In this document: positions 2,576 through 16,428 of the stretch, piece by piece
Layout: each line of letters opens with the position of its first letter
Position numbering within the stretch: position 1 is the first letter of the stretch
Source of the DNA: Halomonas sp.
GTDB lineage: Bacteria; Pseudomonadota; Gammaproteobacteria; Pseudomonadales; Halomonadaceae
DNA length: 33,879 nucleotides
Assembly: GCA_020201075.1 (NCBI GenBank)
Contig: JAIVHL010000138.1
Coordinates: 1-33,879 of the forward strand
Direction of reading: 5' to 3'
Translations under genes and position numbers: made by a program
Notes under the pieces: model-generated
Database searches by the model: none
Told to the model about the DNA's origin: nothing
What the model saw: the letters and a program-made list of their open reading frames with translations, nothing else

Positions 2576-2617
2576 ATCGATCTCCTGAAAAAAACAGCCT
2601 CGATAGTCGGGGCTGAT

Positions 2618-2719
2618 CCGGCGACAGACCTTTCGGGGGCGCTGTGAACCCCTCCCTGGGCGCTACCGATGCCATCCCTGGCATAGGACCCCCTCCAGCT
2701 CTGTCCCCGGCGCCCCTTA
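2618..2719 (-). repeat. Copy B of a ~100-nt structured intercistronic repeat
   Basis: Reverse complement (ggggcgccggggacagagctggagggggtcctatgccagggatggcatcggtagcgcccagggaggggttcacagcg...) aligns along its length with 15849..15950. Lies between the minus-strand genes allE and allA. Confidence 0.85.
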
Positions 2720-2732
2720 GGTTAGCGCCATA

Positions 2733-3566
2733 TCAGCGGCTACCTAATTGCAGTTTCGGGTGGCGATTGACGTCCTTGTAGAGCAGATAGCGGAACGGGC
2801 CCGGGCCGCCGGCGTAGCAGGCCTGGGGGCAGAAGGCGCGCAACCACATGAAATCGCCGGCCTCGACCTCGACCCAGTCCTGATTGAGGTGATAGACCGC
2901 CTTGCCTTCGAGCACGTAGAGGCCGTGTTCCATGACGTGAGTTTCGGCGAACGGGATCGCCGCACCCGGCTGCAGTGTGACGATATTGACGTGCATGTCG
3001 TGGCGCACGTCGGCGGGGTCGACGAAGCGGGTGGTGGCCCAGCGCCCCTCGGTGCCCGGCATCTCGTTGGGTGCGATATCGTTCTCGTTGACCACGAAGG
3101 CTTCGGGCACCTCGATGCCCTCGACTCGCTCGTAGGCCTTGCGCACCCAGTGAAAGCGCACCGGAGCATCGGTCTCATTCTTCACCATCCAGACACTGCC
3201 GGGCGGAATAAAGGCGTAGCCGCCCGGCAGCATTTCGTGGCGCTCACCGGCGAGAGTCAGGGTCATCTCACCTTCGACCACGAAGAGCACGCCCTCGGCT
3301 TCGGGGTCGGGTTCGGGGCGCTCGCTGCCGCCACCCGGGGAGACCTCCATGAGGTACTGGGAGAAGGTCTCGGCAAAACCGGAGAGTGGGCGCGCCAGCA
3401 CCCAGAGCCGAGTCCCCTCCCAGAACGGCAGGTTACTGGTGACGATATCGCGCATCACCCCCTTGGGAATGACGGCATAGGCCTCGGTAAACACCGCCCG
3501 GTCGGAGAGCAGTTGGGTCTGGGGCGGATGGCCGCCGTGCGGCGCGTAGTAGCTACGTTGGTTCAT
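2733..3566 (-). CDS. allE: (S)-ureidoglycine aminohydrolase, bicupin
   Basis: 277-aa double-cupin protein (MNQRSYYAPHGGHPPQTQLLSDRAVFTEAYAVIPKGVMRDIVTSNLPFW...) between allA and puuE. Confidence 0.88.
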   Translation of the reverse strand: MNQRSYYAPHGGHPPQTQLLSDRAVFTEAYAVIPKGVMRDIVTSNLPFWEGTRLWVLARPLSGFAETFSQYLMEVSPGGGSERPEPDPEAEGVLFVVEGEMTLTLAGERHEMLPGGYAFIPPGSVWMVKNETDAPVRFHWVRKAYERVEGIEVPEAFVVNENDIAPNEMPGTEGRWATTRFVDPADVRHDMHVNIVTLQPGAAIPFAETHVMEHGLYVLEGKAVYHLNQDWVEVEAGDFMWLRAFCPQACYAGGPGPFRYLLYKDVNRHPKLQLGSR

Positions 3567-13447: not shown

Positions 13448-14563
13448 ATGGTGACCACTCACGACATCCCCCATCGCGACATTCCCGGCCATGACGCCAG
13501 CGAAGCGCTGGCAGACCGCGTCCGCCGCGCCGAGGCCGAGGGCACGCCCCTGCGCATTGTCGGCGGCGACACCAAGGCGTTTTATGGTCGCCAGGTCGTA
13601 GGCGAGACACTCTCGACCCGCGAGCACTGCGGCATCACCGAGTACGACCCGGTAGAGCTGATCGTCTCGGTACGCACCGGCACCCCGCTGAGTGAGCTGG
13701 AGTCCGCCCTGGCCGCTAATGGTCAGATGCTGCCCTGCGAGCCGCCCCACTTCGGCGAGAACGCCACGGTCGGCGGCATGATTGCCACCGGCCTCTCCGG
13801 GCCACGACGCCCCTGGGCCGGCAGCGTGCGTGACTTCGTGCTGGGCACGCGGCTCATTACCCGCCAGGGCAGCGAGCAGCGCTTCGGTGGCCAGGTAATG
13901 AAGAACGTGGCTGGCTATGACCTTTCGCGCCTGATGGTGGGGGCCCAGGGTACCCTGGGGCTGCTCACCGAGGTTTCCATGAAGGTGCTGCCGCTACCCG
14001 GCGCCAGCCGCAGCCTGCACCTGGACATGCCGCTGGCCGAAGCCCTGGAGAAACTCTCCGAGTGGGGCCGCCAACCGATGCCCATTACCGCCGCCGCCTG
14101 GCTGGAGGGCGCCCTTCACCTGCGCCTGGAGGGCGGGCCAAGCTCGGTGGCTGCCACCGCAAAGCGGCTCGGCGGCGACGAGCTCAAGGACGATTTCTGG
14201 GAGTCCCTCCGCGAACAGCGACTGGCGTTCTTCAGCGCCGAGGACTCGCGGCCATTGTGGCGTTTATCGCTGCCCAACCACACGCCGGCGCTCGAGCTGC
14301 CCGACGTCGACGAGACCGACGTGCTCTACGACTGGGCCGGCGCCCAGCGCTGGGTGCGCTGCAGACTGGATGCCAGTGCCCTGCGCGAGATTGTCGCCCG
14401 CGCCGGCGGCCACGCGACCTGCGTCCGCGGCGCCGGCGGGCAGCCGGTGGAGGAGCCCTTTACACCCCTAGCCCCGGTGGTCGAGAAATACCACCGCAAC
14501 CTCAAGGCCGAGCTTGACCCCCAGGGGATCTTCAACCCGGGCCGGCTCTACGCGGCATTCTGA
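13448..14563 (+). CDS. glcE: Glycolate oxidase FAD-binding subunit GlcE
   Basis: LRIVGGDTKAFYGR, GATVGGMIATGLSGPRRPW-like segment, and C-terminal KAELDPQGIFNPGRLY. Confidence 0.95.
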   Translation: MVTTHDIPHRDIPGHDASEALADRVRRAEAEGTPLRIVGGDTKAFYGRQVVGETLSTREHCGITEYDPVELIVSVRTGTPLSELESALAANGQMLPCEPPHFGENATVGGMIATGLSGPRRPWAGSVRDFVLGTRLITRQGSEQRFGGQVMKNVAGYDLSRLMVGAQGTLGLLTEVSMKVLPLPGASRSLHLDMPLAEALEKLSEWGRQPMPITAAAWLEGALHLRLEGGPSSVAATAKRLGGDELKDDFWESLREQRLAFFSAEDSRPLWRLSLPNHTPALELPDVDETDVLYDWAGAQRWVRCRLDASALREIVARAGGHATCVRGAGGQPVEEPFTPLAPVVEKYHRNLKAELDPQGIFNPGRLYAAF

Positions 14564-14582
14564 GACGGAGGGAAACGCCGAG

Positions 14583-15827
14583 ATGCAAACGCACTTTACC
14601 GAGGAAGACCTCAAGAAGCCGCATATCCGCGAGGCCGATCGAGTGCTGCGCAGCTGCGTACACTGTGGCTTCTGCAACGCCACCTGTCCCACCTATCAGC
14701 TGCTGGGTGACGAGCGCGACGGCCCCCGTGGACGTATCTACCTGATGAAGGAGATGCTCGAGGCACCTGAGGGCAGCGACAAGGTCACCGAGGAGACCCG
14801 ACTCCACCTGGACCGCTGTTTGACCTGTCGCAACTGCGAGACCACCTGCCCCTCCGGCGTGGAGTACCACAAGCTGCTCGACATCGGCCGCGCCGAGATC
14901 GAGCGTCGAGTACCGCGCAAGCCCGCCGAACGCGCCCAGCGCTATGGCCTGCGCAAGATGTTGGTAGAACCCAAGCGCTTCCAGGCGCTGCTCAGGCTCG
15001 GCCAGACCTTCCGGCCGCTGGTACCCGGCGCCCTCCGGGACAAGCTCCCCCCGACCCCTATCGATGCCGGCAAGCGCCCGGACGGCAGCCGCCACGCCCG
15101 GCAGATGCTGATTCTCGAGGGCTGCGTGCAGCCGGGGCTTTCGCCCAACACCAACGCCGCCACCGCCCGGGTGCTGGACCGACTAGGTATCGGCCTGATC
15201 CCGGCGGCGGAGGCTGGCTGCTGCGGCGCCATCGACTTCCACCTGAACGCCCATGACGCTGGCCGCGCCCGGGCGCGAGCCAACATCGACGCCTGGTGGC
15301 CGCATATCGAGAAAGAGGGTGGGTCCGGGGTTGAAGCCATCGTGCAGACTGCCAGCGGCTGCGGCGCCTTCGTGAAGGAGTACGGTGAGATCCTCAAGAA
15401 TGACCCGGCCTACGCCGACAAGGCCGCCAGAGTGGGCGAGCTGGCCAAGGATCTGGTCGAAGTGCTCTGCGACGAGGCCGTCGACGGCCTCGAGGTAACG
15501 CAGGGCCGTCGACTTGCCTTCCATTGCCCCTGCACCCTACAGCACGCCCAGAAGCTCGGCGGCGCCGTGGAAACCGTACTGACCCGGCTCGGTTTCAGCC
15601 TCACGCCGGTGGCCGATGCCCACCTCTGCTGCGGCTCGGCGGGCACCTACGCCATCACCCAGCCCGAGCTAGCCACCCAGCTGCGCAACAACAAGCTCGA
15701 CAATCTCGAGGCCGGCAGCCCCGAAGTGATTGTAACGGCGAATATCGGTTGCCAGACCCATCTGGCCGGCGCCAACCGCACCTCCGTGCGCCACTGGATT
15801 GAAATCGTCGATGAGGCCCTCGCGTAA
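14583..15827 (+). CDS. glcF: Glycolate oxidase iron-sulfur subunit GlcF
   Basis: Two ferredoxin-type clusters (CVHCGFCNATCPTY, CLTCRNCETTCPSGVEY) and two CCG domains. Start ATG 14583. Confidence 0.96.
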   Translation: MQTHFTEEDLKKPHIREADRVLRSCVHCGFCNATCPTYQLLGDERDGPRGRIYLMKEMLEAPEGSDKVTEETRLHLDRCLTCRNCETTCPSGVEYHKLLDIGRAEIERRVPRKPAERAQRYGLRKMLVEPKRFQALLRLGQTFRPLVPGALRDKLPPTPIDAGKRPDGSRHARQMLILEGCVQPGLSPNTNAATARVLDRLGIGLIPAAEAGCCGAIDFHLNAHDAGRARARANIDAWWPHIEKEGGSGVEAIVQTASGCGAFVKEYGEILKNDPAYADKAARVGELAKDLVEVLCDEAVDGLEVTQGRRLAFHCPCTLQHAQKLGGAVETVLTRLGFSLTPVADAHLCCGSAGTYAITQPELATQLRNNKLDNLEAGSPEVIVTANIGCQTHLAGANRTSVRHWIEIVDEALA

Positions 15828-15848: not shown

Positions 15849-15950
15849 AGGGGCGCCGGGGGCAAGCCGGAGGGGAGGTCCTACGCCAGGGAAGGCGTCG
15901 GTAGCGTACAAGGATGTATTCACAGCGCCTCCGGAAGGCCGGCCCCGCCC
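15849..15950 (+). repeat. Copy A of the ~100-nt structured intercistronic repeat (CsrA-motif-like hairpins)
   Basis: ggggcgccgggggcaagccggaggggaggtcctacgccagggaaggcgtcggtagcgtacaaggatgtattcacagcgcctccgg... aligns to the reverse complement of 2618..2719. Confidence 0.85.
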
Positions 15951-16026
15951 AAGGGCGTGCCGCCGAAACAGCCCTGAGTCTGCTGCTTCCTGCAACAGAG
16001 TTCCATCAAATAGAGGAATACCGCTC

Positions 16027-16428
16027 ATGAAGACCAAGCCCGCACTGACCCTGACCGACGTCAACGCCATCCTCGACGCCGCCCAGCAAGAAGCCGAGGC
16101 CAACGGCTGGGGCGTGACCATCGCCGTGGCCGATGACGGCGGCCACCTGCTCGGCCTGCGCCGCATGGACAACGCGCCGCCCTTCAGCGCCGACGTGGCG
16201 TCCCAGAAGGCCCGCAACGCCGCCATCGGCCGCCGCGAGACCCAGGCCTTCGAGGACATGATCAACAACGGCCGTACCGCCTTCGTCACCGCGCCCATGC
16301 AGTCGCTGCTGGCCGGCGGCGTCCCGGTGCTGGTGGACGGTGAGGTCGCCGGCAGCGTCGGCATCTCCGGCGTCAAGCCCGACCAGGACGTCCAGGTGGC
16401 CAAGGCTGGCGTCGCCGCCGTCGGCTGA
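16027..16428 (+). CDS. glcG: GlcG/HbpS family protein
   Basis: LTLTDVNAILDAAQQEAEANGWGVTIAVADDGGHLLGLRRMDNA...GGVPVLVDGEVAGSVGISG. Last gene of the glc operon. Confidence 0.9.
   Translation: MKTKPALTLTDVNAILDAAQQEAEANGWGVTIAVADDGGHLLGLRRMDNAPPFSADVASQKARNAAIGRRETQAFEDMINNGRTAFVTAPMQSLLAGGVPVLVDGEVAGSVGISGVKPDQDVQVAKAGVAAVG

Follow-up and report, generated by a model that had tools for sequence, protein, structure and literature searches.

Two Copies of One Element in the Window

The allE (2733-3566) and allA (2090-2575) genes lie on the minus strand of the window, the 33,879-nucleotide stretch of Halomonas sp. DNA analyzed here, and the gap between them holds an imperfect palindrome, referred to as copy B (2611..2717), in sense orientation on the same strand. 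A second copy, copy A (15849..15970, plus strand), is situated between a gene for an iron-sulfur subunit of the glycolate-oxidase type (14514-15827) and an HbpS-like/GlcG gene (16027-16428). In a repeat search, the pair ranks first among the inverted repeats of the window (82% across 65 nt).

Copy B, which reads AGGGGCGCCGGGGACAGAGC...CAGCC on the minus strand from 2717 to 2611, comprises an outer stem and two hairpins. Based on the fold and the family consensus, the 5′ arm of the stem (2691..2717, minus strand) includes GACAGA and the 3′ arm (2611..2640, minus strand) includes UCUGUC. The sequence and a motif scan place hairpin 1 at 2669..2684 (minus strand; ATGCC-AGGGAT-GGCAT), which contains a first CANGGANG site (CAGGGATG), and hairpin 2 at 2648..2661 (minus strand; CCC-AGGGAG-GGG, with the loop at 2652-2657), which contains a second (CAGGGAGG); the two GGA motifs are separated by 19 nt. 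The corresponding hairpins of copy A are ACGCC-AGGGAA-GGCGT (15883..15898, plus strand) and TAC-AAGGAT-GTA (15907..15918, plus strand), the latter resembling the SELEX consensus of the global regulator CsrA, RUACARGGAUGU (PMC7652899).

Read directly from the sequence, the loops of copy B and its stem changes relative to copy A are exactly as the initial annotation had described them, and the outer pairing of GACAGA with UCUGUC that it had proposed is present in the MFE structure. The distance of ~43 nt that it gave from the element to allA applies if the element is ended at 2618; measured from the end at 2611, the distance is ~35 nt. No promoter-like site was found in the allE-allA gap. Taken singly, neither copy shows an exceptional fold (copy B, z = -1.66, with 15 of 200 shuffles equally good; copy A, z = -0.30), and the case for a conserved structure is therefore a comparative one.

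Copy A contains an extra small hairpin within its 3′ arm. Alternative 3′ arms with such a hairpin (CCTCCGGAAGGCCGG or CCGATGGTCCGACACTTCGGGG) occur at 15925-15955 of the window and at five other loci (L013, L017, L022, L025, and L026), giving the 3′ arm the appearance of an interchangeable part.

A Dispersed Family

BLAST searches of the source assembly (2.8 Mb, 86% complete) recovered ~27 copies of the element on many contigs, with E values from 2e-55 to 3e-4. The ends of these copies are marked by roughly GAGGGGC...GCCCCGAG, beyond which the flanking sequences diverge. In five of them (L027, L031, L032, L033, and L034), as well as at one locus of a relative (L205), hairpin 1 carries an insert of ~80 nt that disrupts the original AGGGAT loop (CAGGGGTG) and that forms a long hairpin of its own, tipped by an AUGGAU or AGGGAU hexaloop. 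Two GGA hexaloops were retained in all four long copies scanned, and the long variant folds with z = -5.25.

A covariance model (R1), built from 20 copies of this genome, was run on 25 genomes of the same genus and recovered 12-70 copies in each of 24 of them. Within the order, R1 matched 84 of 245 genomes, distributed over 44 of 112 genera, and within the class it matched 52 of 369 genomes; a pattern scan also located the element in Microbulbifer and Aquisalimonas. A second model (R2) was derived from 55 genomes, with all copies from the Pseudomonas genus search left out. Among 25 Pseudomonas-type genomes, assigned as such by their RsmY matches, it detected the element in 16, at up to 46 copies per genome. 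The dispersed family that had been suggested from two operons is thus borne out on a far wider scale, in the genome itself as well as in the genus, order, and class. Plasmid and phage records contained practically no copies except on a 1.8-Mb Halomonas replicon, and the possibility that the element is a phage or plasmid part was rejected on the basis of this near-absence.

Pairing Is Conserved and Strand-Specific

Among the 20 short copies of the source genome, RNAalifold yielded 31 consensus pairs, 12 of which have changed on both sides; the CG/UA and GC swaps noted between copies A and B are among them. The outer stem spans 26-31 bp in nearly all copies, with a sequence that is almost free and a pairing that is kept. 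Across the 55 genomes, 87.7% of alignment cells pair, compared to 55% after shuffling and 36-48% in slid registers, and the covariation score is 0.81, compared to 0.21 and 0.12-0.24, respectively; kinship inflates these covariation figures, and the slid-register controls retain that kinship. The stems of the Halomonas copies allow alternative pairings.

Because palindrome repair at the DNA level might also yield compensatory changes, a strand test was applied. Pairing by RNA, or by one DNA strand, predicts that the sense strand tolerates G.U mismatches and not A.C mismatches. With one copy per genome, stem mismatches comprised 39 G.U and 4 A.C (p = 3e-8). Since model searches favor G.U pairs, a further sample of 82 copies was collected solely by exact match to a 26-nt core, which does not include the outer stem; the reversed core pattern, used as a control, gave no matches in all genomes listed. 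In this sample, G.U outnumbered A.C by 82 to 8 (p = 1e-16), with 43 copies richer in G.U and 3 richer in A.C, which argues that selection sees the sense strand in single-stranded form. The consensus pairs of the BLAST-found copies from the source genome showed the same tendency (20 G.U and 5 A.C; p = 0.004). A symmetric alignment of the arms of Halomonas copies gave no G.U excess (21 to 27), a result attributed to mismatches that are constitutive in the Halomonas stems and to misalignment of these stems.

The proposal in the initial annotation that RNA structure is under selection is supported by the covariation in both sets of copies and by the strand test. Of the two outcomes that it had named as arguing against this proposal, a REP/MITE-like scatter of copies is real, whereas covariation is by no means absent, with two-sided changes in 36 of the 38 consensus pairs across the 55 genomes.

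Two Invariant Loops of the CsrA/RsmA Type

The hairpin 1 loop was located in the 55 genomes by stem pairing alone, blind to sequence and with narrow anchoring, and a motif scan was carried out separately. Entropy is 0.31-0.45 bits at the C, A, G, G, A, and G positions of C-ANGGAN-G, the recognition consensus of RsmE/CsrA, and 1.3-1.9 bits at almost all remaining positions, including both free N. Hairpin 2 conforms to an ACARGGAYGU-like sequence. Most loops in the source genome read ARGGAN, and a few copies have AUGGAU.

Two sense CANGGANG sites are present in 23 of 24 copies of this genome, in 50 of the 55 genomes, and in all 29 Pseudomonas copies. On the opposite strand, the total is two such sites in the set from the source genome and two in the 55-genome set. 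The spacing between the GGA motifs is 19 nt in Halomonas and 20-21 nt elsewhere. CsrA dimers have a preference for the spacing of their sites, and 19-21 nt suits a single dimer clamping both loops. In the motif scan, the GGA hexaloops agree with the Rsm consensus for CsrA/RsmA sites, A/U-CANGGANG-U/A (PMC4353343), a match that the initial annotation had not recognized.

The source genome encodes a csrA gene of canonical sequence (PF02599, E = 1e-26). Overall, csrA was found in 48 of 52 element-positive genomes, compared to 313 of 369 genomes in total; one element-positive genome that is 98% complete (G461) gave no match. This co-occurrence is compatible with a CsrA-based reading but too weak to discriminate across 369 genomes, and it was set aside as support. 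Two features are not required for CsrA binding alone and count against such a reading, namely the long outer stem and a conserved AGCG...TTCACAGCG around hairpin 2.

Position and Orientation Relative to Genes

Based on gene calls from a simple codon-usage caller, 2 of 111 copies in a first sample and none of the 82 core-pattern copies fall within called genes. Of 109 copies, 74 have a stop codon and 35 a start codon as their nearest gene end, the median distance being 56 nt to the upstream stop in sense and 37 nt to a stop in antisense orientation. Convergent gaps are common among the element sites. Between co-directional genes, 42 copies were sense and 22 antisense in the first sample (p = 0.017), and 29 were sense and 18 antisense in a second sample from partly overlapping genomes (p = 0.14). 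The description of the element as lying in the direction of transcription therefore stands as a bias, with about a third of such copies being antisense and the second sample falling short of significance. Placement follows stop codons more than start codons.

Orthologous loci differ between species. In the allE-allA gap, the element has the same orientation in two relatives (L196 and L197) and the opposite orientation in four (L201, L202, L203, and L205), and it is absent from three (L199, L200, and L204). A regulator specific to allE and allA is not supported by this comparison, since an element that is flipped or missing in relatives is not a dedicated switch for these genes. In the gap that harbors copy A, six relatives have sense copies with quite different stems, and several others have none.

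In place of the element, several relatives (L228, L229, L231, and L233) have at the copy A locus either tandemly duplicated ends of the upstream gene or short tandem repeats, and short GTAGCCC/GAAGCCC tandem repeats were seen in L232 and L233. Inverted pairs of elements were observed at L117, L122, L125, L126, L128, and L131, and also at L133, L134, and L151. They are mostly arranged minus then plus, with a start-to-start distance of ~235-240 nt at the first six of these loci.

Relation to Known RNAs and Repeats

An outer stem with two hairpins, each bearing one GGA hexaloop, and a gammaproteobacterial distribution are shared with TwoAYGGAY (RF01731; Weinberg et al. 2010, PMC2864571), which was described on publication as a probable RNA without an assigned function. 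CsrA binding was proposed for it in 2014 on motif grounds (PMC4333381). The Pseudomonas copies described above score 57-60 bits with RF01731 (gathering cut-off, 43). The Halomonas-only model R1 matches those same Pseudomonas palindromes (L280, E = 5e-6), and R2 matches both branches. The Halomonas copies differ in falling below the RF01731 cut-off and in having loops that are mostly ARGGAN rather than AYGGAY: RF01731 gave no matches at cut-off in the source genome and none to copy B at E <= 10, and Rfam as a whole gave none at its gathering cut-offs in the window or at 8 divergent loci. Matches to MEG3_2 and Ysr224 were far under the Rfam cut-off and were treated as chance. High copy number, dispersal, and variable orientation are not mentioned in the accessible sections of the TwoAYGGAY literature.

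The RsmY and TwoAYGGAY families belong to one Rfam clan (CL00106), and RsmX/RsmY/RsmZ and CsrB/CsrC likewise present hairpins with GGA loops to CsrA/Rsm proteins. These sponge RNAs are encoded by one or a few discrete sRNA genes, each with its own promoter and terminator. In contrast, the element occurs as tens of intergenic copies with two sites each and, in the allE-allA gap, lacks a promoter-like site; a sponge sRNA gene of the CsrB/RsmZ type was rejected on this ground and on that of the ~27 copies. REP/BIME, ERIC, and MITE sequences are also imperfect palindromes with many intergenic copies, some in inverted pairs. The element differs from them in its directional core with two invariant loops of the protein-recognition type, its strand-specific tolerance of G.U, and the near-complete compensatory replacement of its stems.

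A Model for Element Function

Together, these data suggest that the element probably represents, in the Halomonas lineage, one branch of a dispersed TwoAYGGAY-type RNA repeat, a putative docking site for CsrA/RsmA that would be transcribed with the preceding gene. The transcript of that gene would carry the element, whose RNA is predicted to fold into a long stem presenting two C-ANGGAN-G hairpins, and one CsrA dimer could clamp both hexaloops across the 19-21 nt between them. In cis, the element may act as a CsrA-dockable 3′ UTR or intercistronic barrier that alters the stability or translation of neighboring cistrons, such that the 3′ end or the next cistron would be protected or exposed. 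The 20-70 copies of a genome could jointly titrate CsrA. Dispersal would be REP/MITE-like.

The copies in antisense orientation between co-directional genes count against a CsrA-based reading, as the CsrA-binding RNA would be absent at these sites unless transcription enters from the other side. Alternatively, the element would be a REP/MITE-like mobile palindrome, the fold of which is read as single-stranded DNA by a recombinase or transposase, with the GGA loops serving that enzyme rather than CsrA. High copy number, near-absence from genes, flipping and presence/absence at orthologous loci, and the almost constant spacing of the inverted pairs in several genomes all speak for this account, single-stranded DNA could also account for strand-specific tolerance of G.T, and P. 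putida palindromes have been described as ISPpu8 insertion sites (PMC7937890). Nevertheless, we consider this account unlikely. No recurrent transposase family was found among 801 neighboring proteins, and for the 65 proteins that flank Pseudomonas copies, the 25 commonest Pfam families included no transposase. No clean target duplication was seen, although the intergenic gaps, the empty orthologous ones included, are so diverged that one could hardly be read. Plasmid and phage records are essentially free of copies. An exact CANGGANG with a free N, together with the replacement hexaloop of the long variant, fits CsrA better than it fits a recombinase or transposase.

A stem that blocks exonucleases after the stop codon, as in a REP-like stabilizer or processing site of mRNA 3′ ends without a role for CsrA, would explain the proximity to stop codons and the preservation of a 26-31-bp stem in nearly all copies. 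It is an improbable explanation, because such a barrier needs no invariant C-ANGGAN-G and its loops could drift. Most improbable of all is a cis-acting switch dedicated to the allE/allA operon, with a second, separate one for the glycolate operon. The sense orientation at both loci of the window, the ~35 nt to the allA start, and the sense copies at the copy A locus of six relatives agree with such a switch, but the ~27 copies adjoin varied genes, and three relatives lack the element in the allE-allA gap while four have it inverted.

More generally, and more tentatively than the model of a dispersed CsrA/RsmA-docking repeat itself, to the extent that we would sooner doubt than assert it, a transposable-like RNA element may seed 3′ UTRs and intercistronic gaps throughout the Gammaproteobacteria with ready-made docking platforms of high affinity for CsrA/Rsm, recruiting new transcripts to the Csr network and forming a distributed chromosomal sponge for CsrA. 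If the copies bind CsrA, a mobile RNA part can rewire global post-transcriptional networks, and titration models must add tens of chromosomal sites to the known sponge RNAs. TwoAYGGAY has been without a known function since 2010, the sole hint of CsrA binding being the motif match of 2014. It now acquires a repeat biology, with up to 70 dispersed copies per genome in many genera. A clean strand test for single-strand function and a Halomonas branch missed by Rfam are new.

The family also offers a link to a pull-down with Rsm proteins in Pseudomonas putida whose outcome had lacked an explanation. In strain KT2440, RsmA, RsmE, and RsmI were recovered on intergenic RNAs adjoining ISPpu8 or presumed insertion sites, and the list of Rsm targets includes a "long palindromic region" (PMC7937890). 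Like the element, these palindromes are long and intergenic, and they associate in vivo with RsmA, RsmE, and RsmI (PMC7937890). The Pseudomonas copies identified in this analysis are palindromes of just this kind, and the KT2440 palindromes probably belong to the same family, judging from relatives within the genus Pseudomonas rather than from the KT2440 sequence. At the Pseudomonas-type loci L249-L278, the TwoAYGGAY-type palindrome is situated within a compound repeat of ~300 nt with REP-like borders (GCGAGCAAGCTCGCTCCTAC).
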